NCBI GenBank assembly: GCA_038993745.2
Contig: CP160629.1
Location: forward strand, 434,001-498,000
DNA: 64,000 nt
Source: Aliivibrio fischeri
GTDB taxonomy: Bacteria > Pseudomonadota > Gammaproteobacteria > Enterobacterales > Vibrionaceae
Reading direction: 5' to 3'
How positions within the stretch are numbered: position 1 is the first letter of the stretch; every line of letters begins with the position of its first letter. This document shows positions 5,872 through 37,265 of this stretch, one piece after another. The notes below the pieces were generated by a model. It was not told the origin of the DNA. It did not search any database and saw only the letters and a list, made by a program, of their open reading frames with translations. Made by a program: the position numbers and the translations under genes.

Positions 5872-6977
5872 ATGACATTGGATCAAATACTGAAACAAAT
5901 GATCGCTTTAAAAGCATCGGATATTTACTTAACGGTTGATGCTCCTTGTTTACTGAGAGTGAATGGTGAACTTCAAGCTTTAGGCCACAAACAGAGTATT
6001 GAATCAGTCACTGCTTTGCTTGCTGAAATGATGGATGAAGAGCGCCAAGAAGAGTTTAACGAAAGCTTAGAAGCGAACTTTGCCATTGTGAAAGAATTTG
6101 GTCGCTTTCGTGTGAGTGCTTTTTGGCAGCGAGAGCAACCTGGTGCAGTGATACGTCGTATTGAAACCAAAATCCCGTCCATGGAGTCACTAAATCTTCC
6201 CGAAGTAATGAAAGAATTAGCCGTTACTAAGCGTGGATTAGTATTAGTGGTGGGGGCTACGGGTTCAGGTAAATCAACGTCAATGGCGGCGATGACGGGT
6301 TATCGAAATGACAACCGAAGTGGTCATATCTTAACGGTAGAAGACCCTATTGAGTTTGTGCATCCTCATAATAAATGCATTGTGACTCAGCGTGAAGTTG
6401 GTCTTGATACTGAAAGTTATGAAGTGGCATTAAAAAACTCGTTACGCCAAGCTCCAGATATGATTTTAATTGGTGAGATCCGTAATCGAGAGACGATGGA
6501 ATATGCCATGAGCTTTGCTGAGACGGGGCATCTATGCATGGCAACATTACACGCAAATAACGCAAACCAAGCATTAGAGCGAATTTTGCACCTTGTTCCT
6601 AAAGAGAGTAAAGAGCAGTTTTTGTTTGATTTATCCATGAACTTAAAAGGGTCATTGCACAGCAGTTAGTTCCGGATATGAATGGTAATGGTCGTCATGG
6701 CGTTTATGAAGTGTTACTAAACACGCCACGCGTTGCAGACTTGATCCGTCGTGGTGATTTGCATGAACTTAAATCGACTATGGCAAAATCACGTGAGTCG
6801 GGTATGCAGACGTTTGATCAGAGTTTATTTGAACTGGTAATGGATAAGAAAATATCAGAAATGGAAGCGTTGCACAGTGCGGATTCGGCTAATGATTTAC
6901 GCCTGATGTTGAAAACAAAAAGAGGGGATGCGTTCTCTTCATCTACATTGGATAATGTGTCGATATCGTTAGACTAA
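5872..6977 (+). pseudogene. pilU: PilU retraction ATPase, interrupted by a 1-nt deletion
   Basis: PilU is a PilT paralogue that works with PilT in pilus retraction. The first segment (5872-6669) has Walker A GATGSGKST, the Asp box VEDPIEFVHP and a normal ATPase core, but after SMNLKG it runs into SLHSS and a TAG stop at 6667-6669. The rest of PilU (VIAQQLVPDMNGNGRHGVYE onward) continues in the -1 frame to 6977. Adding one base to the GGG run at 6649-6651 restores an uninterrupted 368-residue protein, the normal size. Either the gene is truly broken or a base is missing from the sequence; similar one-base losses elsewhere in the window favour the latter. Confidence 0.9.
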
Positions 6978-6980
6978 AAA

Positions 6981-7096
6981 AGCAGGGTTCAGGACGCTTC
7001 GCGCTTAGGATTCAGAGACGTTTGTTGTAAGTATTGTACTTACAATGAGTACCTCTGAACCCTTTAAGGGAGCTTGCGACCGATCTGAAACCTGCT
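6981..7096. repeat. 116-bp nested palindromic intergenic element
   Basis: Three nested inverted repeats fill the gap between pilU and ruvX. Outer arms AGCAGGGTTCAG (6981-6992) and CTGAAACCTGCT (7085-7096) match 11/12. Middle arms ATTCAGAG (7010-7017) and CTCTGAAC (7053-7060) match 7/8. A perfect inner pair TTGTAAGTA (7025-7033) and TACTTACAA (7037-7045) has a 3-nt loop. The element could fold as a long hairpin and act as a bidirectional transcript end for the convergent genes, or be a dispersed repeat. Confidence 0.6.
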
Positions 7097-7105
7097 CTTA
7101 TGCTT

Positions 7106-7531
7106 TTAGCTCCACTGATTCTCAAACCAACTTTCTAAAATAACCACAGCTGACTGACAGTCAATATTGCCTTTTGATAGGGCTTTATATCCACCAAATT
7201 CGAATAAATCAGCACGAGCCTCAGCCGTTGATAAGCGTTCGTCATGCAATTCAACTTGTTTACCAAAACGACCATGTAGGCGATTAGCAAATTTCTTTGC
7301 TCGTGGCGTAATAGTGTCGAGCTCTTTACCGTGAAGATCGGTTGGCAAACCAACAACGATTAAATCAGGATTCCACTCTTTAATTTGTTTTTCAATATCA
7401 TCCCAATTAGGGGTGCCATCTTGAGCTTTAAATGCTTTTAGTGGACTTGCTGTTCCTGTGATTTCTTGTCCAATCGCAGAACCAATACTCTTGGTTCCGA
7501 AATCAAAGGCCATAATGGTGCGTGAACTCAT
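7106..7531 (-). CDS. ruvX: RuvX/YqgF family RNase H-fold nuclease (141 aa)
   Basis: This YqgF/RuvX family protein has a Holliday-junction-resolvase-like RNase H fold and is implicated in maturing the 5' end of 16S rRNA; in other bacteria it has been described as a junction resolvase. The first acidic residue is in [13 protein letters not shown] near the N-terminus, and the [12 protein letters not shown] strand follows near residue 55. The start overlaps the yqgE stop (ATGA type), indicating coupled translation. An internal ATG 6 codons in is an alternative start. Confidence 0.93.
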
Positions 7532-8091
7532 GCGTGTCCAATCTCACTTGATAAATTTGCAGGGTTAATTCCCAGTAGTTGTAATGCTTTACGCCAACGA
7601 TCAGGAATAGGAGTATCGAAAATAACGCTTGGATCTGCTTCTAAAGTCAGCCATGTATTCTCTGATAATTCTTTTTCAAGCTGTCCACCTTCCCATCCAG
7701 AGTATCCTAGTGCAACAAGATATTTATATGGCTGGTATTCTGTACCTAATGTAGCAAGAATATCTTTTGAGGTTGTTACTGATAACTCATCAGTCACTTG
7801 AATGCTTGATAAATAGTTATCTTTATTTGAATGAAGAACAAAACCACGATCATCCGACACCGGCCCACCATTTAATACTGGTTGGCTTAATGTTTGAGGG
7901 AAAATGATAGGTGATGGGTTATCTAGCTCTATTTGGTCTAGCATTCCTTTTAATGAAATCTGTACAGGCTCATTGATACGTAAGCCCATGGTTCCATCTG
8001 AATCATGTTCACAAATATAAATAACGCTTCGTTGAAAGAACGGATCTTTCATACTAGGCATAGCAACTAAAAAATGATTTTTTAAATTCAC
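7528..8091 (-). CDS. yqgE: YqgE/AlgH family protein (187 aa)
   Basis: This is a UPF0301/AlgH-type protein, an alpha/beta fold of unclear biochemical role; the name AlgH comes from an alginate regulatory gene in Pseudomonas. The start [19 protein letters not shown] and the [17 protein letters not shown] segment near residue 125 are characteristic. Length is typical (about 187). Its stop overlaps the ruvX start, preserving the gshB-yqgE-ruvX order seen in enterobacteria. The gap to gshB contains a 55-bp inverted-repeat element. Confidence 0.93.
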
Positions 8092-8111
8092 AGAGCCTCC
8101 CGGAAAGCGAG

Positions 8112-8166
8112 ATTAATACCAATGTAAATACCGCTAAAGATAACGCATAAACCAATTGGTATTAAT
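8112..8166. repeat. Inverted repeat ATTAATACCAAT / ATTGGTATTAAT
   Basis: A perfect 12-bp inverted repeat (8112-8123 and 8155-8166) separated by 31 bp lies between gshB and yqgE. A second structure with the same TTGGTATTA-type end and nearly the same size occurs at 55111-55158. Similar short TACCAA...TTGGTA elements are, to my recollection, common in vibrio intergenic DNA. Confidence 0.6.
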
Positions 8167-8203
8167 ATTGAGGAGTTGCCCCCTCAATACAGTTAGAATG
8201 TGA

Positions 8204-9151
8204 TTAAGCGTTAATTCGGCGCTCAATTGCATCCATTAATTTGCCTGTAATCGAAATATCAAAAGCAGCTTCAATTTCTTTAATACAGGTTGGGCTTGTT
8301 ACATTAATCTCAGTTAGCTTGTCGCCAATCACGTCGAGTCCTACAAAGATTAGACCCTTTTCTTTCAATGTTGGAGCTACTGCATTAGCAATTGCCCAAT
8401 CTGTCTCACTTAATGGACGTGCTTCACCTGTACCACCTGCTGCTAAGTTGCCGCGAGTTTCACCTTTTGCTGGAATTCGAGCTAAACAGTAAGGCATTGG
8501 CTCACCATCAACCACAAGAATACGCTTATCACCGTTACTAATATCAGGGACAAAGGTTTGTGCCATGCAGTAGTTTTGTCCGTGATTGGTTAATGTTTCG
8601 ATGATCACTGATACATTTGGATCGCCTGCTTTTACTCGGAAAATAGAAGCGCCACCCATACCATCTAGTGGTTTAAGAATCACATCTCCATGCTCTTCAC
8701 GGAAAGCTTTAATTTTTTCAGCCTTACGAGTCACTAATGTTGTTGGCGTTAGCTCTGGGAACCAAGCCGTGAATAGTTTCTCGTTACAATCACGTAGACT
8801 CTGAGGTTTATTAACAATTAGTGCACCTTGGATTTCAGCTCTTTCTAGAATATATGTCGCATAGATGTATTCTGTATCGAAAGGTGGGTCTTTACGCATT
8901 AATACCGCATCAAGATCAGCAAGGTCGATGGTTTGCTCTGATTGGAATTCATACCAACCTGTTGGATCATCTTTTAGCGTAACGATTTTGGTATCAGCGA
9001 CCGCTTTGCCTTGATCTAAATGTAGGTCACTCATTTCCATGTAATGAATTTCCCAACCACGTTTTTGAGCTTCAAGCATCATGGCAAAGCTAGAGTCTTT
9101 TTTAATGTTAATGGATGAAATTGGATCCATTACGATACCGAGTTTGATCAT
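8204..9151 (-). CDS. gshB: Glutathione synthetase GshB (315 aa)
   Basis: GshB joins gamma-glutamylcysteine and glycine with ATP to form glutathione, the second step of the pathway, in the cytoplasm. It is an ATP-grasp enzyme; the region LKPLDGMGGASIFR near residue 160 and the C-terminal FVGLDVIGDKLTEINVTSPT (Mg-binding Glu and Asn) are conserved. The reading frame is open 37 codons upstream into rsmE, but the ATG at 9151 (MIKLGIVMDPI) gives the usual 315 aa and starts 13 nt after rsmE. Confidence 0.96.
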   Translation of the reverse strand: MIKLGIVMDPISSINIKKDSSFAMMLEAQKRGWEIHYMEMSDLHLDQGKAVADTKIVTLKDDPTGWYEFQSEQTIDLADLDAVLMRKDPPFDTEYIYATYILERAEIQGALIVNKPQSLRDCNEKLFTAWFPELTPTTLVTRKAEKIKAFREEHGDVILKPLDGMGGASIFRVKAGDPNVSVIIETLTNHGQNYCMAQTFVPDISNGDKRILVVDGEPMPYCLARIPAKGETRGNLAAGGTGEARPLSETDWAIANAVAPTLKEKGLIFVGLDVIGDKLTEINVTSPTCIKEIEAAFDISITGKLMDAIERRINA

Positions 9152-9164
9152 TGTGTTTCTCCAG

Positions 9165-9896
9165 TTAGCCAAGATCGCCAAAACGAACTTGTAGGGCTGT
9201 AATTGCGGTAAGCGCTGCGGTTTCTGTTCGTAGAACACGAGGACCAAGCAGCGTTTCTTCAAATTGATATTGTTCTGTCATGCTAATTTCATCAGACGAT
9301 AAACCGCCTTCAGGACCAATTAACAAGCGTACATTTGTTACCGGTTCAGGAAGTGTATTGATTGAGTATTTTGCTCGTGGATGAAGGTTGAGCTTTAACC
9401 CATCGTACTCTTCTGCGCACCATTCTTCTAATGACATAATAGGACGAATTTCAGGAACAGTATTACGTCCACATTGCTCACATGCAGCAATTGCAATTTT
9501 TTGCCATTGATCTAATTTCTTTTCAAATCGCTCTTTATTTAATTTAACGCCACAGCGCTCAGAGATCAGTGGTGTAATGATATTCACACCCAATTCGACC
9601 GATTTTTGAATGGTAAATTCCATTTTATCGCCACGAGAAACAACCTGACCTAAATGTAAGTTAAGTGGCGATTCGCTGCTACGCTCAATACGCTCAGTGA
9701 TTTCCACTTCAACACTCTTTTTTGACGCTGAAGTGATCACGGCTGGAAATTCAGATCCGCTTCCATCAAACAGAAGCACAGATTCACCTTCTTTCATTCG
9801 CATTACACGACCAACGTGATTTGCTGCATCATCACTTAAATTTACTTTTCCTTGTGAAGGAAGAAGCTCTGGGTGGTGGATTCTTGGTATTCTCAT
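9165..9896 (-). CDS. rsmE: 16S rRNA (uracil1498-N3)-methyltransferase RsmE (243 aa)
   Basis: RsmE methylates U1498 of 16S rRNA using SAM. It belongs to the SPOUT class; the knotted SAM-binding site is visible as [14 protein letters not shown] near residue 192 and the following [11 protein letters not shown] near residue 218. The N-terminal PUA-like domain contains [20 protein letters not shown]. It sits directly upstream of gshB with a 13-nt gap, as in E. coli. Confidence 0.95.
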
Positions 9897-9969
9897 GGTC
9901 TACTTTTCTTTAACTATCTTGTATTTAAGGATGGAGGTTAAAGTATGCTTTTTCAACCTCTAATTATGT

Positions 9970-10674
9970 CTATTTGCGACATGCTTTGTAGACAAACTGG
10001 TTATGGTTGCCTTGAATTTTAGCAATGCGCTTATCGCGTTCACACTCCCATTCAGATACTGGGTATTGCTTGTTCCATGCATTCATTAGCTGACGTTGTG
10101 ACTTCGATAAATTGAAACGATACTCTTGGTTCATGTATAAATAAGTACGAGCAATAGCACCTCTTGATTGTGCTGGTGGCTCAGCGACACGTCCTTTGAA
10201 ATCCACTTTGAAGGCACACTGACCGTAATATGCGCCTTTATTGCCATTCCATTGTGAGAAACGGAAATTAGATCGGTCACCATTTACTTCGCCAATTGCT
10301 GGAACAAGGTTATGCAAATCAGCTTCCATTAACTTAAATTGCTTATCTTTTCGGGTGCAGTTTTTACGGCCCCCATCTTGCCAACATTGACGTTGGTGGC
10401 CAAATTGCCATGCTGGAACGACGTGCTCCCATTCGATTCGGCTTGCTCGCTTTTCTTGTTTACGCACGTTATAACCACAACTTTGTAAATCAGGAATGCC
10501 TTTCTTTTTATCTTTCCAAGTTATGTCACAGCCACAATAAAATGAGGTTGGATGATCTAAATAGATTTTGACAGCTTCTTTTTTGGCTTTTGAAAATGAA
10601 GAAGGAGGAGCGGCTAATACATTAAATGCAGAGCCAATAGCGATAATGCTAATAAGTAAGCGGATTAATTTCAT
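9970..10674 (-). CDS. endA: Endonuclease I, periplasmic/secreted DNase EndA (234 aa)
   Basis: This is a Vvn/EndA-type nonspecific nuclease exported by a Sec signal peptide (cleavage expected after VLAA near residue 22). The beta-beta-alpha-metal active-site segment is [12 protein letters not shown] (His general base) with the Mg-ligand region [17 protein letters not shown]. Eight cysteines suggest the disulfide-bonded fold known for Vvn, which keeps the enzyme inactive in the reducing cytoplasm. Vibrio Dns-type nucleases degrade extracellular DNA and limit natural transformation. The position between sprT and rsmE is conserved. Confidence 0.95.
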
Positions 10675-10750
10675 AATAACTACTACTGATGATTGTATTA
10701 ATTCAGTAAGAGTAGCTTATTGTTAAACCGCTTTATAGATAAATTAATTA

Positions 10751-11266
10751 TTAGAAGTCGTTAATTTCACTACAGTTGATTTTGGCTCGAGACAGTTTTA
10801 ATGGCGATTGACAGTTTTTACATACATATTGAGTCTGTTTTTTTTGCACTCGATTATGGCGACGTACCGTTAATTCGTGTGTCGAGCATTTGCAACGATA
10901 AGGAAAGGTTTTTCCTTTAACTGAATCGACACTGAAACTGTGTGTTGTACGAGCGGGGAGATTGAATACCTGATTCATTACTCCTTGCCATTCTTTTCCA
11001 TGAGGGCGCACACGGCCATACAATTTGAATGTGATTAGGTGAGCGATTTCATGAGGGATCACTTCATTAATAAACGTGTGTTGATTTTCTTCTAATAAAA
11101 TAGGGTTAATGCGTATTTCCCAACCTTGAAGACGTGCTGTCCCTGCGATTTTGCCACGCTGAGTAAATTTGATTTCTGGCAGAGAAAAAGGACGATTAAA
11201 AAAGGTAGAAGCTTGTTGAATACATTGTTGTGCTTTTGCTATTGATGCTTGTTGAAGTGGGGTCAT
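10751..11266 (-). CDS. sprT: SprT family zinc metalloprotease (171 aa)
   Basis: SprT proteins resemble the protease domain of eukaryotic Spartan. The zinc-protease motif HEXXH appears as VIPHEIAHLITF near residue 85, and a C-terminal zinc ribbon is suggested by CKC near residue 130 and CKNC near residue 153. The bacterial function is not settled. Length matches E. coli SprT (165). It lies upstream of endA on the same strand. Confidence 0.92.
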   Translation of the reverse strand: MTPLQQASIAKAQQCIQQASTFFNRPFSLPEIKFTQRGKIAGTARLQGWEIRINPILLEENQHTFINEVIPHEIAHLITFKLYGRVRPHGKEWQGVMNQVFNLPARTTHSFSVDSVKGKTFPYRCKCSTHELTVRRHNRVQKKQTQYVCKNCQSPLKLSRAKINCSEINDF

Positions 11267-11380
11267 TACGTCTCTTTATTATCGGTTTTCAAACTTCCGG
11301 AAAAGGAAGAACGATTAAATAGACCATTTCAAAGAGGATTAATCAATAGATAGGAAAATATTATTCATGCTGTAAACATA

Positions 11381-11406
11381 AAAAAGGAAGCCGAAGCTTC
11401 CTTTTT
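11381..11406 (-). terminator. Rho-independent terminator of metK
   Basis: GGAAGC pairs with GCTTCC around a CGAA loop (stem in 11386-11401), with A and T runs on both sides, just downstream of the metK stop. The minus strand has a clean T run. The flanking symmetry would also allow function on the plus strand. Confidence 0.85.
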
Positions 11407-11431
11407 AAATTCAGAAATAAGCAAATAAAAC

Positions 11432-12586
11432 TTATTTAATACCAGCAAAATCACGAAGGATTGCGGCTTTATCTGTCGCTTCCCAAGGGAACTCTTCACG
11501 ACCGAAGTGACCGTAAGCTGCTGTCTTCTTGTAGATAGGCTGAAGAAGGTTAAGCATTTCTTGTAGGCCGTATGGGCGTAGGTCGAAGTTTTGACGAACT
11601 GCTTCAATGATGATGTCGTGAGATACCTTCTCAGTACCGAACGTTTCAACCATGATAGATGTTGGATCAGCAACACCGATTGCGTATGAAAGTTGGATTT
11701 CACAACGGTCAGCCATGCCAGCTGCTACGATGTTTTTCGCTACATAACGTGCAGCGTATGCTGCTGAACGGTCAACTTTTGATGGATCTTTACCAGAGAA
11801 TGCACCGCCACCGTGACGAGCTGCACCGCCGTATGTATCAACGATAATTTTACGACCAGTAAGACCACAGTCACCCATTGGACCACCGATAACAAAACGA
11901 CCTGTTGGGTTAATAAAGAAGTTAGTGTCTTTATTTAACCATTCAGCAGGCAGTACTGGCTTGATGATTTCTTCCATTACTGCTTCACGAAGATCTGGTG
12001 TTGTCACAGAATCACAGTGTTGTGTTGAAAGAACAACAGCATCAATACCAACAATTTTACCTTGGTCGTATTGGAACGTTACTTGAGATTTTGCATCTGG
12101 ACGTAGGAAGTCTAGCTTGCCACTCTTACGTACTTCAGCTTGTTTTTGAACAAGTAGGTGAGAGTAGGTAATTGGAGCTGGCATTAAAATTGGCGTTTCG
12201 TTAGTTGCGTAACCAAACATGATACCTTGGTCACCAGCACCTTGTTCTTTAGGATCGGCTTTATCAACACCTTGGTTGATGTCTGGAGATTGCTTACCAA
12301 TTGTGTTTAATACGGCACAAGAGTTTGCATCAAAGCCCATGTCTGAATGAACGTAGCCGATTTCACGAACGGTTTCACGAGTGATTTCTTCGATATCAAC
12401 CCATGCAGAAGTGGTTACTTCACCACCAACCATCACCATGCCAGTTTTTACGTATGTTTCACACGCAACACGCGCTTTTGGATCTTGTTCTAAGATCGCA
12501 TCAAGTACTGCATCTGAAATCTGATCTGCAATTTTATCTGGATGACCTTCTGATACTGACTCAGAGGTAAATAGGTGCTTAGCCAT
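11432..12586 (-). CDS. metK: S-adenosylmethionine synthetase MetK (384 aa)
   Basis: MetK makes SAM from methionine and ATP. Conserved motifs include [18 protein letters not shown] near residues 11-28, the [12 protein letters not shown] hexapeptide region near 116, and the P-loop-like [19 protein letters not shown] near 259. Length equals the E. coli enzyme. The gene is monocistronic here, with its own terminator downstream and three MetJ-box-like octamers upstream (12639-12686), including one perfect AGACGTCT, so methionine-pathway repression by MetJ is likely. Confidence 0.97.
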
Positions 12587-12638
12587 AAGAGAGCTCCACT
12601 TCTATAAATAATAAGTTCTAAAAATACCCACAATCTAT

Positions 12639-12686
12639 ATAAGTCTATACGTTTAACAGTGTAGGTGTTTTTCCATCTAGACGTCT
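12639..12686 (-). promoter_or_regulatory. MetJ operator (met boxes) upstream of metK
   Basis: The MetJ consensus half-operator is AGACGTCT, used in tandem. A perfect copy is at 12679-12686, itself inside the 10-bp palindrome TAGACGTCTA. Two adjacent weaker copies, ATAAGTCT (12639-12646) and ATACGTTT (12647-12654), each match 6/8, and all three lie on the same 8-bp register. Placement 50-100 bp upstream of metK fits repression by MetJ with SAM as corepressor. Confidence 0.75.
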
Positions 12687-12751
12687 ATAATAAAGTAAAA
12701 TTGATTAATTACAACTCATTTAGTTTAAGAAAATAAATATAAGACATAACC

Positions 12752-12847
12752 AATCGTTTGCGTTTTGCTGTGAGATTTATCGGTATAAATCAGGTTTTCT
12801 GTCAAAATCGTGAAAAAAAGCGCCTTATTTACTAAGTAATCGTTTGC
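12752..12847 (+). promoter_or_regulatory. Two AATCGTTTGC operator-like sites upstream of tkt
   Basis: The decamer AATCGTTTGC occurs at 12752-12761 and again at 12838-12847, both upstream of tkt. The first, extended to AACCAATCGTTTGCGT, matches the LacI-family PurR consensus ACGCAAACGTTTGCGT at 13 of 16 positions; the second matches about 11 of 16. A fully palindromic relative lies upstream of fbaA. The 364-bp metK-tkt gap also holds the MetJ boxes and must hold the divergent promoters; I could not fix the -35/-10 elements. Confidence 0.4.
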
Positions 12848-12950
12848 AGTGCCGATGAGGCTTTGCGACAATACGCACCTGCAAATTTAGGTTAATCAAT
12901 AGTGGTTAACTTGCTCAACAATATAGTCCTTCGAATTTTCAGGAGCAGGC

Positions 12951-14945
12951 ATGTCTTCACGTAAACATCTAGCAAATGCAATCCGCGCTTTAAGCATGGA
13001 TGGTGTTCAACAAGCAAATTCTGGTCACCCAGGCGCACCTATGGGTATGGCAGATATCGCTGAAGTATTATGGCGTAGCCACCTAAATCACAACCCACAA
13101 AATCCAGAGTGGGCTGACCGCGACCGTTTCATTCTTTCAAACGGTCATGGCTCTATGCTGATTTATTCTCTGCTTCATCTTTCAGGTTATGACCTGTCTA
13201 TCGAAGACTTAAAGAATTTCCGTCAACTGCATTCTAAAACTCCAGGTCACCCTGAGTACGGTTATGCACCAGGCGTAGAAACAACTACGGGTCCATTAGG
13301 TCAAGGCATCACTAACGGTGTTGGTATGGCGATGGCTGAAAAAGCATTAGCGGCACAATTTAACCGTGAAGGCCACGATATCGTTGATCACAACACATAC
13401 GTGTTCATGGGTGACGGTTGTCTAATGGAAGGTATCTCTCACGAAGCGTGTTCACTTGCTGGTACATTAGGTCTAGGCAAATTAATCGCATTTTGGGATG
13501 ACAACGGTATCTCTATCGATGGTGAAGTTGAAGGTTGGTTCTCTGATGACACGCCTAAACGCTTTGAAGCTTACGGCTGGCACGTAATTCCTGCTGTTGA
13601 TGGTCACGATTCAGACGCTATCAATGCAGCAATTGAAGCGGCTAAAGCTGACCCTCGTCCTTCTTTAATTTGTACTAAAACAGTAATTGGTTTTGGCTCT
13701 CCAAATAAACAAGGTACACACGACTGTCACGGCGCTCCATTAGGTGCTGAAGAAATTGCAGCAACTAAAGCTCAATTAGGTTGGGAATACGGTGCATTTG
13801 ATATCCCTGCTGACGTATATGCAGGCTGGGATGCAAAAGAAGCTGGTGCTGAAAAAGAAGCAGCTTGGAATGCGAAATTTGACGCATACGCAGCAGCTCA
13901 CCCTGAATTAGCAGCTGAATATAAACGCCGCGTAAATGGTGATTTACCTGCGGAGTGGGAAGAAAAAGCAAATGCAATCATTGCTGATCTTCAAGCAAAT
14001 CCTGCAAATATCGCTTCTCGTAAAGCGTCTCAAAACGCATTAGAAGCGTTTGGTGCTATGTTACCTGAATTCATGGGCGGCTCTGCTGACCTTGCACCAT
14101 CTAACTTAACGATGTGGTCGGGTTCTAAATCTTTAGAAGCAAATGACTTCTCTGGTAACTACATTCACTACGGTGTGCGTGAATTTGGTATGACAGCAAT
14201 CATGAATGGTATTGCTCTGCACGGTGGTTTCGTACCATACGGCGCAACGTTCCTAATGTTCATGGAATACGCTCGTAACGCAATGCGTATGGCTGCACTA
14301 ATGAAAGTGCAAAACATTCAAGTTTACACGCACGACTCTATCGGTCTTGGCGAAGATGGTCCAACTCACCAACCAGTTGAGCAAATCGCTTCTCTACGTC
14401 TAACTCCTAACATGAGCACATGGCGTCCATGTGACCAAGTTGAGTCTGCTGTAGCATGGAAATTGGCTATCGAGCGTAAAGATGGTCCTTCTTCTTTAAT
14501 CTTCTCTCGTCAAAACCTTGCACAGCAAGAGCGTACACAAGAGCAAGTTGCTGATATCGCTAAAGGCGCATACATCCTTAAGGATTGTGAAGGCCAACCT
14601 GAGTTGATCCTTATTGCAACAGGTTCAGAAGTTGAGCTAGCAGTTGAAGCTGCAGCACAACTGACAGCAGAAGGTAAAGCGGTACGTGTTGTTTCAATGC
14701 CATCAACAGATGCATTTGATAAGCAAGACGAAGCATACCGTGAAGCAGTACTTCCATCAGCGGTAACTAAACGTATCGCAATTGAAGCGGGTATTGCTGA
14801 TTTCTGGTACAAGTATGTCGGTTTCGGTGGTAAGATCATCGGCATGACAACATTTGGTGAGTCAGCGCCTGCTGATGAGCTATTCAAAATGTTTGGTTTC
14901 ACTACTGAAAATGTAGTAAACACGGCGAAAGAACTTTTAGCTTAA
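12951..14945 (+). CDS. tkt: Transketolase (664 aa)
   Basis: This thiamine-diphosphate enzyme moves two-carbon units between sugar phosphates in the non-oxidative pentose phosphate pathway. The TPP motif GDGCLMEG is near residue 154 with the closing DDNGISIDG near 184; the catalytic His and substrate region PGHPEYG and GPLGQGI are conserved, and the C-terminal [16 protein letters not shown] is intact. Length equals E. coli TktA (663). It is followed by a strong terminator and then epd, so the tkt-epd-pgk-fbaA order of many gamma-proteobacteria is kept. Confidence 0.97.
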
Positions 14946-14993
14946 TTAAAAAAGCATTAGCTTAATTTAGCGATAAGTAAAAATAAGATGAAG

Positions 14994-15026
14994 AGCGAAG
15001 TTATTGAAAGGTAACTTCGCTTTTTT
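14994..15026 (+). terminator. Rho-independent terminator after tkt
   Basis: AGCGAAGTTA (14994-15003) pairs perfectly with TAACTTCGCT (15012-15021), followed by a T6 run ending at 15026, about 50 nt after the tkt stop. Confidence 0.88.
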
Positions 15027-15090
15027 GATCCTTTAAGAAAAAAGCGAAAAGAGTACAATAACCGCAAATGGAAAAAGAGAGTTATGTATT

Positions 15091-16110: not shown

Positions 16111-16138
16111 ACTCAGTAATCAGTAAATTTGTGATGAA

Positions 16139-17440: not shown

Positions 17441-17449
17441 TTATTTAAG

Positions 17450-18672: not shown

Positions 18673-18703
18673 TTTTTTATTATAGACAGCTCGAATTGAG
18701 TTA

Positions 18704-18733
18704 ATAAAAAACCGCTAATTAGCGGTTTTTTTA
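18704..18733 (+). terminator. Rho-independent terminator after fbaA
   Basis: The perfect palindrome ACCGCTAATTAGCGGT (18711-18726), preceded by an A run and followed by a T run, lies about 40 nt after the fbaA stop. Confidence 0.88.
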
Positions 18734-18748
18734 TGTTTGTAAAAAGAG

Positions 18749-23320: not shown

Positions 23321-24216
23321 ATGAATAATGATATGGCATTAATGGAGCGTTTTTAGATACCATGTGGATGGAGCGTGGCCTGTCTGAAAATACGTTGGCT
23401 TCATATCGAAACGATTTAGTGAAGTTGTTGCAGTGGTTAGAAGATAATCACTATAAATGTGCTTCTATTTCAGCGATGGGACTTAATGAGTTTCAAGCTT
23501 ATTTAGTTGATAAAGAATATAAACAAACTTCTCGAGCTCGAATGCTGTCTGCATTACGTCGTTTTTTTCAGTATTTACATCGTGAAAAAATCCGCGGAGA
23601 TGATCCCACAGCATTACTTGCTAGCCCTAAATTACCTCAACGCTTACCAAAAGATTTAAGTGAAGAGCAAGTTGATGCGTTGCTTAATGCTCCGAATGTC
23701 GAAGATCCTCTAGAGCTTCGAGATCGAGCAATGTTAGAACTACTTTATGCAACAGGTTTACGTGTTACTGAGCTAGTTAGCTTAACCATGGAAAATGTAA
23801 GTTTACGCCAAGGTGTTGTACGAGTTACTGGTAAAGGTGATAAAGAACGTTTAGTCCCAATGGGAGAGAATGCCGTAGATTGGATTGAGCAGTTTTTAAC
23901 TCATGGTCGTCCAATGCTGCTTGGTGAAAAAAGTTCGGATGTCGTGTTTCCTAGTAAACGAGCAAAACAAATGACTCGTCAGACATTTTGGCACCGAATT
24001 AAGCATTATGCTGTTATTGCTGGTATTGATTCTGATAAATTATCGCCACACGTATTGCGACATGCTTTTGCTACACATCTTTTAAACTATGGCGCAGATC
24101 TCCGTGTTGTACAAATGTTGTTAGGACATAGTGATCTTTCAACAACACAAATATATACTCATGTAGCAACGGAACGTTTGAAGCAAATTCATCAAGAGCA
24201 TCACCCTCGCTCATAA
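23321..24216 (+). pseudogene. xerD: Site-specific recombinase XerD, interrupted by a 1-nt deletion near the start
   Basis: XerD with XerC resolves chromosome dimers at dif. The catalytic set is intact: Arg in ATGLRVTEL, HVLRHAFATHLL (H-x-x-R), LLGHSDLSTTQIYTHV (H and the nucleophile Tyr). The conserved N-terminus MNNDMALMERF starts at 23321 in one frame and meets a TAG; the continuation LDTMWMERGLSENTL is in another frame. Adding one T to the run 23350-23354 joins them into a 298-residue protein, exactly the E. coli length. An ATG at 23362 could produce a 284-residue form lacking about 14 residues. A missing base in the sequence is the likeliest cause. Confidence 0.9.
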
Positions 24217-26947: not shown

Positions 26948-27146
26948 ATGTTTATGGTCTAGTTGCAAACAGATAGGCCTTATTTTTCTTTGGGAAGTTA
27001 AATAAAAAACGTTTTGGTGTGATGTTTTTTACACCATTTTCTCAATCTTTATTGTTCTTGCTTTCAGAGGGTGAAATACCTCGATTTCTATCACACTTTT
27101 GGTTAAAATCTCTCGGTTATTTTTTATTCGGCGATGATAAAACACC

Positions 27147-28244
27147 ATGTTCGAAATTAATCCTATTAAAAACCGTCTCCAGGATGTGTCTGAACGCACA
27201 AATATCCTGAGGGGTACCTTTGACTATGACGCTAAAAAAGAGCGTCTAGAAGAAGTAAATGCAGAGCTAGAACAACCGGATGTATGGAATGAACCTGAAC
27301 GTGCACAAGCACTAGGTAAAGAACGTGCATCACTAGAAGCTGTTGTTGAAACCATTGATCTTTTAGATCAAGGTGTTGAAGACGTAGATGGCTTACTAGA
27401 ACTTGCGGTTGAAGAAGAAGATCAAGAAACCTTTGATGAAATTGAACCGGAACTGGCTGAGTTAGAAGCTAAGCTAGCGAAACTTGAGTTTCGTCGTATG
27501 TTCTCTGGTGATCACGATGCTTCTGACTGTTATATCGATCTTCAATCAGGCTCTGGTGGTACAGAGGCTCAAGATTGGACTTCTATGATGCTGCGTATGT
27601 ATTTACGTTGGGCTGAAGCAAAAGGCTTCAAAGTAGAAGTTATCGAAGTATCAGAAGGTGAAGTTGCTGGTCTTAAAGGCGCAACAGTTCGTATCGCTGG
27701 TGAATACGCTTATGGTTGGTTACGTACAGAAACTGGTGTTCACCGTTTAGTTCGTAAATCGCCATTTGATTCTAGTGGTCGTCGCCATACTTCATTTGCA
27801 TCTGCATTTATTTATCCAGAGATTGATGACAACATTCAGATTGATATCAACCCTTCTGATTTACGTATTGATGTTTACCGTGCTTCTGGTGCGGGTGGTC
27901 AACACGTAAACACCACCGAATCTGCGGTACGTATTACTCACGTACCAACAAATATCGTTGTTCAGTGTCAGAATGACCGTTCTCAGCATAAGAACAAAGA
28001 TCAAGCAATGAAGCAGTTACGTGCGAAATTGTTTGAGTATGAGTTGCAAAAACAAAATGCTGAAAAACAGGCCAATGAAGACGCTAAATCTGATATCGGA
28101 TGGGGCAGTCAAATTCGCTCATACGTATTAGATGATTCACGCATTAAAGATTTGCGTACCGGTGTAGAAAACCGTAATACGCAAGCCGTTTTAGACGGTG
28201 ATTTAGATAAATTTATCGAAGCCAGCTTAAAATCTGGATTATAA
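27147..28244 (+). CDS. prfB: Peptide chain release factor 2 (RF2) PrfB (365 aa)
   Basis: RF2 ends translation at UGA and UAA. The anticodon-like SPF is in [14 protein letters not shown] near residue 206 and the catalytic GGQ in GAGGQHVN near 250. In most bacteria prfB is read through a programmed +1 shift at CTT-TGA-C near codon 26. Here the remnants (AGGGG spacer and CTTTGAC) are present, but the gene is open in one frame because the G run at 27211-27214 is one base short; the protein reads LRGTFDYD instead of the usual LRGYLDYD. One added G would recreate AGG-GGG-TAC-CTT-TGA-C. It is followed by lysS. Confidence 0.95.
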
Positions 28245-28257
28245 GAAAGGGTTCATT

Positions 28258-29763: not shown

Positions 29764-29786
29764 TAAAGAATAAATAAACATGATGA

Positions 29787-29816
29787 AAGAGCGGCTAATT
29801 AGCCGCTCTTTTTTTA
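29787..29816 (+). terminator. Rho-independent terminator after lysS
   Basis: AGAGCGGCTAATTAGCCGCTCT is interrupted here for brevity: the stem halves AGAGCGGC and GCCGCTCT lie between 29788 and 29809 and are followed by a T run. It ends the prfB-lysS unit. Confidence 0.88.
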
Positions 29817-30150
29817 TTTATCTTACTTAAAGCACTAAAAATGAGAAAATAACTACACTTTTTTATCAATTGACTTAATTTTTACAATTCAAATTAATAG
29901 TCATGTAACGGTTAAAAAGTAATAAAAACCCTTTTTTTTATGCAATAAATCTTCTCTAATCTCATATTTGATTCAACTATTTCTTTAATATGTTAACTGT
30001 CATTTATTTATTATGCTTAAGATGTATTTTTTTTGTTAAAAGGATGACGCGCATCTCATTTGTGAGACGAGATAAGGTCTTAAAACCTGTATAGTTGCAA
30101 CTAAGAAACATTTTAAGTTGGTTTAGAAATAAGAATTTAGAGGTAGTGTT
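29817..30150 (+). other. Leader/promoter region of vpsR, 334 bp without a gene
   Basis: This stretch between the lysS terminator and vpsR is very AT-rich. A small hairpin-like ATCTC...GAGAT pair lies near 30053-30073, roughly 80-100 nt before the vpsR ATG. I see no ORF of note, no c-di-GMP riboswitch pattern and no clear -35/-10 that I would commit to. Confidence 0.5.
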
Positions 30151-31488
30151 ATGGGTACTCAATTTCGTATGGATTCGGTTCCAGGCTCTTTAGTTGTTGT
30201 AGGTGGCAGCTATGAACCTTGGTTAGCCGTTTTAGAACAAGTAGGTTGGCGTTGTCATCGTTGCTATGATCTTCGAGCAGCTCAAGCTCTGTTTGACGAG
30301 ATTGGGCCATGTATTGGTATTGTTGATTTAAGCCAAGATGATTTTAGTCTTAATGGCATTGCAACGTTAGTTAATAACAATAAGCAAGTTCGCTGGATGG
30401 CTTTCATCCGTGAATCTCAGCTAAGTTCAGATACTATTTGCCAGTTTATTGTTAACTTCTGTATTGATTTCTTCACTGCACCAATTCCTGATGCTCAATT
30501 ATTAAGCACGATTGGTCACCAATTGGGTATGCTTAAGTTAGAACGCAAAGTATGGCCAAATATGGGGAATAAATCGGATCTTGGTATCTTGGGTGAAGCT
30601 CCAGCTGTTAAGCGCCTGCGAGATCAAATCCGCCGTGTTGCTCCAACAGATGTTTCTATTCTTATTTCTGGTGAAAGTGGTGTAGGTAAAGATGCAGTAG
30701 CAAAAGCGGTTCATGAATCTTCTGGTCGTAATAAAGGCCCATTTGTTTCATTAAACTGTGGTTCACTATCTGAAAATAAAATTGAACAAGAATTGTTTGG
30801 TTCTCACTCTTCGTCACCAGAAGAATCTAAATTATTCCAAGCCAATGGTGGTACATTATTTTTAAATGATATTAATGATTTGCCAGCTAGTCAGCAGCAA
30901 CATCTATTACGATTCTTACAAGAAGGTAATATCGAGACTGAAAAAGGTTTTGTTGATTTAGATGTTCGAGTGATTGTTGCAAGCCACATCGATTTAGAAA
31001 AAGCGATTGAAGAAGGCAGCTTTAAAGAAGAGTTGTATTATCGCTTAAATGTATTGCGTATTCATGTACCATCTCTAAAAGAGAGAAGTTCAGATATCTC
31101 GGTTTTAGCAGAGCATTTCTTACAGCGTTATGCAAAAGAGTACAATACACAAGCAAGAACGTTCTCAGAAGAAGCATTACAAACGATGTTGCATTATCAA
31201 TGGCCTGGTAATGTACGTGAGTTAGTAAACCAAGTGAAACGTGCTGTATTACTTGCAGATAGCATGACGATTGATCTTGAACACTTAGACTTACCGCAAC
31301 GCAGTGAAACAAAACGCAGTTTGCGTGTTATCCGTGAAAACTCGGAGAGAGATGCGTTATTAATGGTATTAGAATCTCATGATGGCCAAGTTTCTTCAGC
31401 TGCAAAAGAATTAGGTGTTTCACGAGCAACTATGTATCGTTTATTAAATAAACATAATTTGATTTCTGAGCCGAGAAGCTATAGCTAA
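30151..31488 (+). CDS. vpsR: VpsR-type biofilm transcription regulator (445 aa)
   Basis: This is an enhancer-binding-protein homologue of V. cholerae VpsR, which activates biofilm polysaccharide genes and binds c-di-GMP. It has an N-terminal receiver-like domain with Asp59 (GIVDLS), an AAA+ domain with Walker A GESGVGKD near residue 176 and a Fis-type C-terminal helix-turn-helix (AAKELGVSRATMYRLLNKHN). The sigma-54 GAFTGA loop is absent (the equivalent stretch reads GSHSSSPEES) and Walker B is FLNDIND rather than FLDEIGD, as in VpsR proteins that act with sigma-70. Close overall similarity to V. cholerae VpsR is from memory. Confidence 0.92.
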   Translation: MGTQFRMDSVPGSLVVVGGSYEPWLAVLEQVGWRCHRCYDLRAAQALFDEIGPCIGIVDLSQDDFSLNGIATLVNNNKQVRWMAFIRESQLSSDTICQFIVNFCIDFFTAPIPDAQLLSTIGHQLGMLKLERKVWPNMGNKSDLGILGEAPAVKRLRDQIRRVAPTDVSILISGESGVGKDAVAKAVHESSGRNKGPFVSLNCGSLSENKIEQELFGSHSSSPEESKLFQANGGTLFLNDINDLPASQQQHLLRFLQEGNIETEKGFVDLDVRVIVASHIDLEKAIEEGSFKEELYYRLNVLRIHVPSLKERSSDISVLAEHFLQRYAKEYNTQARTFSEEALQTMLHYQWPGNVRELVNQVKRAVLLADSMTIDLEHLDLPQRSETKRSLRVIRENSERDALLMVLESHDGQVSSAAKELGVSRATMYRLLNKHNLISEPRSYS

Positions 31489-31505
31489 TCGAACCCTTAT
31501 TGAAG

Positions 31506-31541
31506 AATAGGCTTACCTTGAATTAGGTAGGCCTATTTTTT
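31506..31541 (+). terminator. Rho-independent terminator after vpsR
   Basis: AATAGGCTTACCT and AGGTAGGCCTATT pair at 12 of 13 positions, followed by a T7 run, between convergent vpsR and mutH. Confidence 0.85.
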
Positions 31542-32209
31542 TAGCTGAAGAATGAAGTCAGTATCGAATGAGTAAATTGAGTTTTTAAATAAAAACCGCG
31601 GGGTAGCGTTTTTATAGGTTGTCCATTTTCACCATATGCCTCAGTCAGCGCTTGGCTGTTTGCTGCTTTAGGTCTTAATTGAAGAACTTCGCCATGTTTT
31701 GCTGTAATTGACTCAACCTTACCGAGCACAATTAAATCCATCAATTCTTCCCAATCTTGTTTTAACTGTCGTTCTTCTTCCACAGAAGGTTGCCATAAAA
31801 CTGGATATCCGACATGACGATCCCCGACAGGGATCTCTCGCTCGCCTTCTACAGGGATCCATAATACGTGAGCCAGTTTATGACGAACATGAGACTCTTC
31901 CCATTGTAAGCTGTGTACGCCTGTTAATGGAGCGACACAAACAAAAGTCGTTTCTAATGGTTTACCTGTATAGCTGATTGGAATGGTTTTTAGTTCTACA
32001 CTAAGATCGATGAAATCAGGTAAAGGTTTACTGCCAGCTGAAGCTCCTAAATGCCATTCTAATAATTGACCAACCCAGCCTTTATCTCGCTTTAAATTTT
32101 CAGGCACAGGGATGCCGGCCTGCTCTGCCAATTCAGATAGCGTATAGCCTGCAATACTTTCTGCTCGTTGTAATAATTCATCAATAGTATTTGGTGGTGG
32201 TAAGCTCAT
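31541..32209 (-). CDS. mutH: DNA mismatch repair endonuclease MutH (222 aa)
   Basis: MutH nicks the unmethylated strand at hemimethylated GATC sites during MutSL-directed mismatch repair. The catalytic D-X6-E-X-K motif is in [12 protein letters not shown] near residues 61-72, and the C-terminal [12 protein letters not shown] is conserved. Length matches E. coli (229). Presence of MutH implies a Dam-methylating gamma-proteobacterium. Neighbours mutH-rppH-ptsP follow the enterobacterial order, but here mutH is divergent from rppH. Confidence 0.95.
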
Positions 32210-32806
32210 AAAGACTCTTCAACATGATTGAATGAATAGATTATCATATTATCAACATTATTTTTTGACCTAATTTGGATCTTAGTAAGTTATCCACAAT
32301 AGTGTATATATTTTATCCGTTACTTATTTTTCTGGATCCATATACAGTGCTTTAATTTTGAATAACTCATTGACTTTTAGTTCTTATACTTAATCAGATA
32401 GCCTTAATTGTGGGTAATTAGGTTGTTGGTGGATCTTTAATCAATCTGTGTTTATATTATCCAATCACTTTTTAGTGGAAAAGATCAAGGTAAAGATCTT
32501 TGCTTTAACTTGTTGGTTTTATTGTTTTTTGTTTGTTTGGTGCTTTTGTTTTTATTTTGTATTTAAAGAGCTAACTTTTACCGTTTATGATTTATTTTTA
32601 GCTTCTACACAAAGTTATACACAGAAAAGGTGAATAAATGTGGCTTATATCTCATTGTTGTGTTGATAAGTTAAGCAGTGATTAAAAGTTATTCAGAAAA
32701 TTAGGTTATTTTGGTAAAACGTGACAAGAAAGCGTGATCCTGTTTGCTCAAAGAGCCGATCTGTGAAAAAATCAGAGTCAATATAAGTTTATGATGAGGT
32801 CATCCA
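32210..32806. other. 597-bp mutH-rppH gap with GATC cluster and DnaA-box-like 9-mers
   Basis: This AT-rich gap has seven GATC sites between 32278 and 32761 (about 2 expected by chance in 600 bp), a perfect DnaA-box 9-mer TTATCCACA at 32290-32298 and a related TTATACACA at 32615-32623. The pair AAAGATC/GATCTTT near 32481-32500 forms a small palindrome. The only ORF (32448-32633) encodes a low-complexity hydrophobic peptide and is probably not real. It must also hold the divergent promoters of mutH and rppH. Confidence 0.5.
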
Positions 32807-33319
32807 GTGATAGATGGCGATGGTTTCCGCCCGAACGTCGGGATAGTGATATGTAATAGCCATGGTCAAGTATTCTGGGCGAAGCGATACGGACAGCATT
32901 CGTGGCAATTTCCGCAAGGTGGTATTGATGATGGTGAGACTCCAGAACAAGCCATGTACCGTGAATTATACGAAGAGGTAGGTCTGACAAAAAATGATGT
33001 TCGTATTTTAGCAAGCAGCCGTCATTGGCTACGATATAAATTACCGAAACGTCTAGTTAGATGGGACTCTAAACCTGTTTGTATCGGACAAAAACAAAAA
33101 TGGTTTTTGTTACGCTTAGAATGTGATGAATCCAAGGTTAATATGCAAAGAGATCGCTCGCCTGAATTTGATGGTTGGCGATGGGTAAGCTACTGGTACC
33201 CTGTAAGACAAGTGGTTTCATTTAAGCGTGATGTTTATCGTCGAGCACTAAAAGAGTTCGCGGTGATCGCTATGCCGTTTAAGGAACGAAAATTTAAAAG
33301 GAAAGGTAAAAAAGGTTAA
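32807..33319 (+). CDS. rppH: RNA pyrophosphohydrolase RppH (170 aa)
   Basis: RppH removes pyrophosphate from the 5' end of mRNAs and so triggers RNase E-dependent decay. The Nudix box GX5EX7REXXEEXG is complete ([20 protein letters not shown] then VG) near residues 38-60. The start is GTG with GAGGT 6 nt upstream, giving [13 protein letters not shown]. coli RppH also starts with GTG. The C-terminal tail is basic. ptsP follows after 38 nt. Confidence 0.96.
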
Positions 33320-33357
33320 GCGGTCGATACCTTATATAACCTTAAGGATTGGCAAGC

Positions 33358-35618
33358 ATGCTTACTCAACTCAGGGATATAGTTGATCACGTAGCTAAAG
33401 CGGAGTCTCTTGATGATGCTTTAGCGTTGCTCGTGAAAAATACTCGTCACTCTATGCATACAGAGTGCTGCTCAGTCTATTTGATGAGTAATGATAACCT
33501 GCGCTTAGAATTAATGGCGACAGAAGGACTAAAAGCGAAACCAAAAACCGTTTCATTGGGGATTGATGAAGGTTTAGTTGGATTGGTTGCGCGTAGTTGT
33601 GAACCGCTAAACTTAGCGAATGCTTCTGTACACCCTTCATATAAATACATTCCTAGTATTGCTGAATATAAGTTTAACTCCTTCCTAGCAACCCGATTAT
33701 TTACCGACGCCAAAACCTTGGTGTGCTTGTTGTACAACAAAAGGAAAAACGTCAGTTTACTGAAGTCGAAGAATCCTTTTTAGTCACCTTATCCGCGCAA
33801 CTTGCAGTTGTACTTGCTCATGCTAAAGCTCATGAAAGTTGGTCAACTCAATTACAACCCCAATCGATTGAACAAAAGCAATTCAAAGGTATCTCTGCAT
33901 CAAATGGTGTGGCTATTGCTCCATTATGGTTTGACGATGCTCAACCAAGAATAGAATCCATTCTACCAAGTTCATGTCTTGATACAGAGCAAGAACAAGA
34001 TCGTTTAGGTACTGCGGTTGAGTTAGCTTTAAAAGATTTCCGCCGAGCTAAAAAACGCTTTGAGCAAGAATTAAATACCGAAACGTTGGCTATTTTTGAT
34101 CTTTTCACCCACTTATTAAATGATCCTATGTTGAAGGGAGATCTGAAAAAACAGATCAACCAAGGTGATTCTGCCGAGTGGGCATTGCGTCAAGTTATTG
34201 AGTCATACGCCGGGCGTTTTGAAAAAATGAGTGATTCATACCTCAGTGAGCGAGCGAATGATGTTCGTGAGTTAGGACAGAGATTACTTTATTTTTTAAA
34301 TTATGAAGGTAAGTTAGAGCTGGATTTAGCTCATCCCGTGATTTTAGTGACGACTCAGTTAACGGCTTCTATGTTAGCGAGTGTTCCTCAAGATAAATTA
34401 AAAGCCGTTATTTCGCTTGAAGGTGCGGCAAACTCTCACGCAGCCATTTTATCAAGAGCGCTTGGTATTCCTGCAATTATGGGGGTGGAGTTTAATCCAA
34501 CTCATTACCATCAAAACCTAGCTATTGTAGATGGCTATAGTGGTGCTCTATACATCAAGCCAACAGAAGCGCTAATTCAAGAATATACAGAGCTACAAAA
34601 TGAAGAGTTAGCCCTTTCTGAATTAATCACTCAAGATCTTGATAAACCTACATTTACACGTGATGAGCATCAAATGAAAATTTATTTGAATGCAGGGTTA
34701 AGTGCAGATACGAGTATTGCTGTTAATCAGGGGGTTGATGGTGTGGGTCTATATCGAACTGAAATTCCTTTTTTATTACAACAGAGATTTCCATCAGAAG
34801 AAGAGCAGTACCTACAATACAAAACTATTTTAGAAACGTATCCTAAAAAGCCAGTCATTATGAGGACGTTAGATATTGGTGGTGATAAACCATTACCGTA
34901 TTTACCAATTGAAGAAGAGAATCCATTTTTAGGTTGGCGTGGTATTCGTTTTACTTTAGATCATCCTGATATCTTTCTTCTGCAACTAAAAGCGATGGTT
35001 AGAGCAAATATAGGTAATGGTAATTTGTCCATTATGTTACCTATGATTTCAGGCTTACCTGAATTAAAGCAAGCAAGAAAGCTTATTAACCAAGCCTATG
35101 AAGAAGTGCTTGGTGAATCGGAAGGAGACTTTTCACAACCTCGTATAGGTATGATGATAGAAGTGCCTTCTATGCTGTATTTGTTACCAAGAGTTGTTGG
35201 ATTAGTGGATTTTATTTCTGTAGGTACTAATGACTTAACTCAATACCTTTTAGCGGTGGATCGAAATAACGCACGAGTTTCACATGTTTATGAATCTTAT
35301 CATCCCGCTGTGTTACTCGCATTAAAGCAAATTATTGATACGGCAAATCAATATAAATTGCCTGTTAGTGTTTGTGGAGAACTTGCAGGGGACCCAATTG
35401 GTTGTTTATTACTGCTTGGTTTGGGTTATCAAAGCTTAAGTATGAACACCTCTAACGTAGCCAAAGTAAAATATATTATTAGGCAAGTATCGCAGCAAGA
35501 AGTTGAACAATTAGTTGCGACTCTTTTACATCACGATGATGCAGAGCAAATTTTAACTGATATGATTGGCTTCTTTGAAGAGAAAGATCTCTCTGGGTTT
35601 ATTCGAGCAGGCAGGTAA
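33358..35618 (+). pseudogene. ptsP: PtsP (enzyme I-Ntr), interrupted by a 1-nt deletion
   Basis: PtsP is the first phosphotransferase of the nitrogen PTS, taking phosphate from PEP and passing it to NPr. The N-terminal GAF domain (MLTQLRDIVDHVA onward, ATG at 33358) is open until residue about 112, then the frame runs to a stop at 33781-33783. The rest, GVLVVQQKEKRQFTEVEESF onward with the phosphohistidine site GAANSHAAILSR, PEP-binding GGDKPLPYLP and SVCGELAGDP, continues in another frame to 35618. One C added to 33692-33694 gives ATPIIYRRQNLGVLVVQQ and a 753-residue protein (E. coli 748). The TAA overlaps the next ATG. Confidence 0.9.
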
Positions 35619-36421
35619 TGACAGTGGATTTTGGTTCGCTTTTTGTTTTATATCTTTTGCTAGGTAGTATCGTTGGCGTAATGGCTGGATTACTTGGAAT
35701 CGGTGGTGGTTTGTTAGTTGTACCGGCTTTATTGTGGTTATTACCTCAAGCGGGAATCGATAGTTCAATTGTAATGCAAATGGCATTAGGTACTTCACTT
35801 GCAACGATTATTTTAACTTCAACGTCATCTGCGTTGAACCATTTACGTTTAGGTAATGTCGAAGTAGCGCTTATTCGTAGTTTAGCTCCTGGGGTGATAG
35901 CTGGTGGTTTTCTTGGTAGCTACGTTGCAGAATTAATTCCAAGCCAATATTTACCAAAAGTATTCGGCGTTATTGTGCTTCTGCTTGCTTTGCAAATGCT
36001 ATTAGCGCTTAAGTTGACTGCTACCAGAACTTTACCATCTCCACTTAAAATTGCCGCTTCAGGAAGTGTTATTGGTATTGTTTCAAGCTTAGCTGGAATT
36101 GGTGGTGGCTCATTAACGGTACCGTATTTAAGCTTTCATGGCATAGAGATGAGAAAAGCCATTGGCAGTTCTTCTTTGTGCGGTACATTGATAGCACTTG
36201 CCGGCATGATAGGTTTTATTCTTCATGGGGTACAAGTGACTAATTTACCTCCCATGAGTTTAGGATATGTTTATTTACCGGCATTATGCGGTATTGGTGT
36301 AACTTCTATTTTGACGACCAGAATAGGGGCAAAGTTAACATCGCATTTACCAACATCAACGTTAAAAAAAATCTTTGCCATATTTCTTGTATTTATTGGC
36401 AGTAAAATGTTTTTAGGATAA
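35618..36421 (+). CDS. TauE/SafE family sulfite exporter-like permease (267 aa)
   Basis: This is an integral membrane protein with about eight hydrophobic segments and the duplicated TauE/SafE motif ([15 protein letters not shown] near residue 25 and [16 protein letters not shown] near 160). The family moves sulfite or organosulfur anions; the actual substrate here is unknown. It overlaps the ptsP stop by one base (TAATG) and lies 11 nt before lgt, so it is translationally coupled into the ptsP-lgt-thyA unit. E. coli lacks a gene at this place, to my recollection. Confidence 0.85.
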
Positions 36422-36432
36422 AGAGAGTAGTC

Positions 36433-37265
36433 ATGAGTCAGGGGTATTTGAACTTCCCACATATTGATCCTGTATTAATTGAGATCGGTCCATTAGCGGT
36501 TCGTTGGTATGGATTAATGTATTTATTTGGTTTTATGTTTGCATTATGGCTTGCTAATAAGCGTGCAGATAAGCCAAATAGCGGTTGGACACGAGATCAA
36601 GTTAGCGACCTATTGTTTGCTGGATTTTTAGGTGTAGTGATCGGCGGTCGTGTTGGTTATGTGCTGTTTTATAATTTCGGCTACTTCTTAGATAACCCAC
36701 TGTACTTATTTGAAGTATGGACTGGTGGTATGTCTTTCCATGGTGGTTTACTGGGGTGATCTCAGCAATGCTTTGGTATGGTTATAAGAATAATCGTAGT
36801 TTCTTTACGATTGCAGATTTCGTTGCACCATTAGTACCATTTGGTCTGGGAGCGGGTCGTTTAGGTAACTTTATGAATGGTGAGTTATGGGGACGTGTTA
36901 CCGATGTGCCTTGGGCAATGGTGTTCCCAACTGGCGGTCCTTTCCCTCGACATCCTTCTCAGCTATATGAATTTGCCCTTGAAGGTGTTGTATTATTCCT
37001 TATTCTAAATTGGTTTATTCGTAAACCTCGTCCATTAGGTACTGTTTCAGGTTTATTCCTATTTGGATATGGTACATTCCGATTCTTGGTCGAGTATGTA
37101 CGTCAACCAGATGCACAGTTAGGATTATTTGGTGATTGGATTTCAATGGGACAAATTTTGTCACTACCAATGGTTATTGGTGGCTTATTAATGATGCTTT
37201 GGGCATTTAAACGCAATTTGTACCCATCAATTGAGCAACCACAAAGTACGACAAAGAAAAAATAA
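36433..37265 (+). pseudogene. lgt: Prolipoprotein diacylglyceryl transferase Lgt, interrupted by a 1-nt deletion
   Basis: Lgt adds diacylglycerol to the lipobox cysteine of prolipoproteins in the inner membrane and is normally essential in Gram-negatives. The N-terminal half (to [13 protein letters not shown]) ends at a TGA at 36757-36759. The C-terminal half, including the Lgt signature [16 protein letters not shown] and HPSQLYE, continues in another frame to 37265. Adding one G to the run 36753-36756 joins them as [10 protein letters not shown] and yields 277 residues. A sequencing gap base is much more likely than loss of an essential gene. Confidence 0.9.

Follow-up and report, generated by a model that had tools for sequence, protein, structure and literature searches.

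Apparent gene breaks in an Aliivibrio fischeri assembly are very probably consensus errors, most marked in G and C runs

Five genes in a stretch of an Aliivibrio fischeri assembly, pilU, xerD, prfB, ptsP and lgt, each differ by one missing base from both near relatives considered. Comparison of the sequences leaves little room for doubt that these breaks arose as errors in the assembly consensus and are not biological. The stretch, hereafter called the window, comprises all 64,000 nucleotides at positions 434,001-498,000 of contig 1 in a two-contig assembly (2,926,402 and 1,419,103 bases). The sequence-only reading had proposed a systematic undercall of homopolymers, and this was borne out far beyond the window: over 549 kb, 34 G/C runs of at least three bases are shorter in the assembly and one is longer than in the nearer relative, and shortfalls occur in 13 of 15 16S rRNA copies found. 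The error mainly concerns G/C runs; A/T runs are less affected and some deletions lie outside runs, so that the term "homopolymer undercall" is broadly correct but too narrow.

The near relatives were a two-contig genome (G002) and A. fischeri emors.2.1 (G003). The latter was the nearest named record in a contig scan, which contained no second assembly of the same species and from which very near records may be missing. In the aligned sample G002 is the nearer of the two, as it and the assembly share more with each other than either shares with G003. The three-way comparison was based on a 400 kb sample per genome with a base composition of 39% G+C. Both relatives covered 283.7 kb of the assembly, and the aligned coding bases numbered 247,814; only places that both relatives cover were counted, and aligned pieces shorter than 1500 bases were dropped. 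A change present in one genome of the three was called private. The pairwise comparison with G002 alone included 549 kb of alignment, in pieces of at least 1500 bases and at least 90% identity, and counted one-base indels only. The intactness of genes was checked in 80 named loci and in 13 further genomes from the genus. On chromosome 2, only 20.4 of the 200 kb at positions 100001-300000 aligns with the same coordinates of G002, which suggests that gene order or content has shifted in this region.

In the alignments, one-base deletions against both relatives were observed at window positions 6649, 23350, 27211, 33692 and 36756. As stated previously, all five are deletions and none is an insertion, and each proved to be private to the assembly. 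The sequence-only reading had called for comparison with other genomes of the same species, and at all five sites the longer sequence is found in G002 and G003. Four of the sites were placed by the sets of open reading frames (ORFs), and prfB was judged by its own frame. It had also been claimed that one extra base restores a protein of family length at each site. This agrees with the open pilU, ptsP, lgt and xerD frames of the relatives, but not with prfB, which is already full length at 365 aa. The claim that a homopolymer is one base short at each site cannot simply be applied to lgt, where the relatives have no longer G run.

In the part of the window aligned in both relatives (63,771 bases), the private changes of the assembly are 10 one-base deletions and 5 one-base insertions. 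The five sites listed above are those of the 15 that lie in genes, and the other ten fall outside the ORF sets. Five private shortfalls in G/C runs of at least three bases were seen in the window, three of them among the five sites; the numbers expected in 64 kb are 7.2 given the rates in rRNA and 3.9 given those in the wider sample, of which the window is a part. The five breaks are more than chance, yet the window is ordinary for this assembly. A terminator-like hairpin at 18700-18740 has both arms one base shorter than in the relatives. It may have suffered two errors at once, but a real paired change is at least as likely. Some of the non-coding deletions surely represent real divergence.

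These five genes are all on the forward strand. The pilU gene is written as a frame of 265 aa (5872..6669), compared with 368 aa in the relatives, and is broken at the run near 6649. The ptsP gene is written as two pieces, 33349..33783 (144 aa) and 33723..35618 (631 aa), with the break near 33692. The lgt gene also consists of two pieces, 36433..36759 (108 aa) and 36717..37265 (182 aa), broken near 36756. The xerD gene is broken near 23350, at approximately codon 9, and is written from a downstream start (23362..24216) as 284 aa versus 298 aa. Even as written, xerD, the ptsP pieces and each half of lgt exceed the family cut-offs, that of the PTS family model in the case of the second ptsP piece. 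Both pilU and ptsP are single open frames in all 13 other genomes of the genus, whereas lgt is open in 12, and in the thirteenth (G008) it is split across two contigs, both pieces being open. Many of the 80 named loci end nearby; of the 51 in which ptsP was found, 44 have it whole, and of the 19 with lgt, 5 do. The xerD gene was found in 53 of the 80 loci, and all 53 keep it open over 93% of its length or more. An uncultured Photobacterium metagenome-assembled genome (L067) has one stop within an otherwise full-length lgt match.

The G/C run at the pilU and ptsP sites is four bases long in the relatives, and runs of this class are short in 7 of 297 cases in the assembly. At lgt, a base that varies among the relatives follows their two or three G, and the window has four G, so that its run is not simply one G shorter than that of the relatives. 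According to PMC9487459, Lgt is essential in proteobacteria. The last lgt codons and the sequence beyond them (37180-37340) show approximately 70% identity to the relatives and contain several indels, being far more divergent than the rest of the window. A multi-base indel at 37249, within these divergent codons, looks like real divergence.

The prfB gene (27147..28244) is written as a single full-length frame of 365 aa, in which the G run near 27211 is one base short. The earlier inclusion of prfB among the genes short of family length was mistaken, as this ORF scores above the prfB cut-off; what differs is the internal stop. Both signals of the programmed frameshift, the Shine-Dalgarno-like run and the slippery CTTTGA, are at the right place. 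The run is one base shorter, which puts the internal stop out of frame, and CTTTGA is retained. As written, prfB contains no in-frame internal stop and is open for 365 aa. The frameshift site is kept in all 13 relatives from the genus. The exact five-G form was observed in 76 of the 80 named loci, and another three carry a variant that includes the internal stop; in 78 of the 80, an internal stop lies within the first 35 codons of the match. In Neiella litorisoli (L074) the first prfB codons lack the internal stop and the slippery region is altered, and a real loss of the frameshift is plausible there. An error in prfB of the assembly needs no special cause, since five-base G/C runs are short at rates of 4/33 in the sample and 7/60 in 16S rRNA.

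One possibility is that errors account for most of the breaks but not for one or two of the five, which would be real: either the prfB deletion, or slippage in the T run of xerD rescued by the downstream start. We consider this unlikely, although it fares better than the other alternatives. As written, the prfB protein is whole, and in Pseudomonas fluorescens SBW25 single-G deletions in the Shine-Dalgarno-like run, which remove the internal stop, have been recovered as real suppressors (PMC13245932). The xerD protein from the downstream start is above the XerD cut-off, and A/T runs of six bases have private insertions as well as private deletions in each of the three genomes. Thus xerD is the least certain of the five as an error. 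On the other hand, the frequency of short five-base G/C runs makes an error in prfB unexceptional, its frameshift site is retained throughout the genus, and every private one-base change in the coding sequence of the assembly is a deletion. Moreover, prfB of the assembly keeps the slippery CTTTGA, whereas in-frame prfB genes lack both the Shine-Dalgarno-like and the slippery elements, according to a survey of more than 12,000 genomes (PMC12421855). It is very improbable that the prfB frameshift has truly been lost by one recent deletion in the Shine-Dalgarno-like run, with the slippery site not yet decayed and the other breaks being errors. If it were true, this loss would be a natural counterpart of the laboratory P. 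fluorescens suppressors.

The explanation by consensus errors extends to the whole sample. With the ORFs of G002 as the reference, the private one-base changes in coding sequence are 25 deletions and no insertions in the assembly, one deletion and one insertion in G002, and two deletions and three insertions in G003. With the ORFs of G003, the assembly has 27 deletions, two of which are coding by this reference only, and again no insertions. At all sites of the 283.7 kb, coding or not, it has 54 private one-base deletions and 16 insertions. Private substitutions number 5795 in the assembly, 3907 in G002 and 7260 in G003, and thus branch length does not account for the excess of deletions. The 27 coding deletions include 18 of G or C. 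Nine of the 27 fall where the run in the relatives is one or two bases long, which argues against a pure undercall of runs: the deletions are not restricted to homopolymers, and the earlier observation that all of them lie in runs of at least three bases does not generalise from the window to the wider sample. Part of the deletions in short runs may be in runs found only in this strain. Multi-base private indels that change the frame in coding sequence number three by each reference.

The 27 deletions are spread over 25 ORFs. According to family models, these include lptF, mutY, prmC (two deletions), nirB, proW, pta, cydC, lrp (two deletions), adhE, and genes for alanine dehydrogenase, a Bcr/CflA transporter and an aspartate:alanine-type antiporter. 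The affected copA is under the cut-off of its own model and over that of the copper-ATPase subfamily. The ORFs under the cut-off are pgm (just under, and tested as a part), a SirB1-like protein, and a LolA-like protein, which is under both LolA cut-offs. The shortfall seems to be indifferent to gene function, as 16S rRNA copies, one tRNA-Phe gene, lgt and lptF, an essential gene, are affected alike.

The deletions depend strongly on the length and the base of the run. The numbers of private deletions per G/C run of length one to six are 6/74612, 6/14734, 6/1882, 7/297, 4/33 and 1/5, respectively, so that the rate climbs from 0.008% through 0.04%, 0.32% and 2.4% to 12% for lengths one to five. 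The corresponding numbers for A/T runs of length three to eight are 2/8402, 1/2796, 4/1037, 3/383, 3/127 and 3/24. A/T runs of three to seven bases contain 11 private insertions and 13 deletions in the assembly, and those of four to six bases change both ways; thus the A/T runs alone are not clearly biased. No private insertion was observed in the assembly in a G/C run of any length, and two single G/C bases have been gained. No private deletion in a G/C run of at least three bases was found in G002 or G003. The aligned part of chromosome 2 (20.4 kb, 189 G/C runs of at least three bases) contains neither shorter nor longer runs.

The 16S rRNA copies of the assembly serve as an internal yardstick. 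We found 15 copies of 1548-1553 bases in the assembly and 10 copies in G002, all of 1553 bases. Of the assembly copies, 13 are affected; together they have 25 one-base deletions, all of them of G or C and 24 in runs of at least three bases. No one-base insertions were found in the 15 copies, and no deletions in the 10 copies of G002. The affected copies are on both contigs, and one copy on chromosome 2 has five short G/C runs of at least three bases. The shortfalls per run in rRNA and elsewhere are, respectively, 5/495 and 6/1882 for length three, 4/135 and 7/297 for length four, 7/60 and 4/33 for length five, and 8/15 and 1/5 for length six. The differences are not significant (Fisher p 0.058, 0.75, 1.0 and 0.32 for lengths three to six), with the rRNA rate being three times that elsewhere in runs of length three. 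Since the rates per run are alike, one process can explain the rRNA and the other sites. Real decay of 13 out of 15 16S copies is implausible. Approximately 4.7 kb before the window, one of the three tRNA-Phe copies (L111:9204-9278) has 75 nt compared with 76 nt in both relatives, the missing base being in the acceptor stem.

The mechanism is very probably a sequencing or consensus step in which homopolymers lose one base. The probability of such a loss climbs steeply with the length of the run, and is much higher for G/C than for A/T runs of equal length. The source would then be an uncorrected long-read consensus, in whose correction accurate short reads presumably played no part, and the living strain would have intact genes at these places. 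Correction with short reads is improbable, since unique genes and repeats suffer at about the same frequency.

A different explanation is a real mutator lineage, in which mutS, and mutY as well, has been lost, slippage shortens homopolymers throughout the genome, and the genes are truly broken. We give it almost no credence, although several observations point in its direction. In the assembly mutS is written in two pieces (contig 1, 570032-572559), and it is whole in all 13 relatives from the genus; mutY (contig 1, 431198, 2.8 kb before the window) bears one private coding deletion; and V. fischeri without mutS acquires one-base homopolymer indels, more of them in longer runs (PMC5854121). 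The split of mutS is itself a change of the kind in question and probably represents the same artefact; its break is not in a long run. The mutL gene is open. The spectrum of the V. fischeri mutS deletion provides a yardstick. That strain gained 4313 substitutions per 382 indels (PMC5854121), which predicts approximately 282 extra substitutions for 25 coding indels. With the ratio taken from one relative or the other, the non-synonymous excess in the assembly comes to -18 or +44. Private nonsense changes number 0 in 76,914 codons with the G002 reference and 1 in 76,474 with that of G003, compared with two in each of the relatives. The ratio of non-synonymous to synonymous changes is 0.102 in the assembly and 0.106 and 0.091 in the relatives, and the ratio of transitions to transversions is 2.26 compared with 2.32 and 2.20. 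A mutator would also require true damage to 13 of the 15 16S copies, lgt and lptF. As the nonsense count and both ratios resemble those of the relatives, the mutator lineage was rejected.

Recent gene decay of the ordinary kind, in a host-associated strain that is no mutator, is just as hard to credit: Aliivibrio does include host-associated symbionts, and frame breaks by one-base deletions are common in young pseudogenes, but such decay should be accompanied by nonsense substitutions, insertions and longer deletions, whereas the coding sequence has one private nonsense change at most, no one-base insertions and three multi-base frame-changing indels, and the 16S copies are affected at similar rates.

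The consequences of the errors for the use of this assembly are considerable. The 25 private coding deletions, set against 234 genes mostly covered by the sample, mean that about one gene in ten looks broken, and extrapolation to the genome gives approximately 380 false coding breaks. The warning of the sequence-only reading that claims of loss of function from this assembly are unsafe was thus justified. It applies to pseudogene counts, to gene absences, and to labels such as "mutS-minus" or "prfB without frameshift". On the other hand, the 16S copies of one genome form a yardstick of errors by run length for which no reads are needed, and it could be used for any closed genome with several rRNA operons.

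Similar errors have been documented. A PacBio genome before correction had 561 one-base homopolymer deletions (PMC4888979), and the approximately 380 breaks extrapolated here are of the same order as this long-read precedent. Fragmentation of genes by homopolymer errors is the subject of PMC12007338, where one nanopore assembly is profiled and its deletions are mostly at A/T runs. As in the uncorrected long-read assemblies described in PMC4888979, PMC12007338 and PMC8812927, the changes observed here are deletions and not insertions, occur mostly in homopolymers, number hundreds per genome and fragment genes. Unlike in the nanopore assembly, where A/T runs dominate, the bias is strongest in G/C runs of three to six bases. 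The resemblance to V. fischeri without mutS (PMC5854121) is that one-base homopolymer indels make up most of the indels and their rate rises with length. However, in that strain substitutions outnumber indels 11 to 1, whereas here the deletions come without an excess of substitutions. Finally, as in the prfB suppressors of P. fluorescens (PMC13245932), one base fewer in the Shine-Dalgarno-like run joins the two prfB frames, but the P. fluorescens deletion is a selected and verified suppressor, whereas the one described here belongs to a class of runs that is short in approximately 12% of cases.
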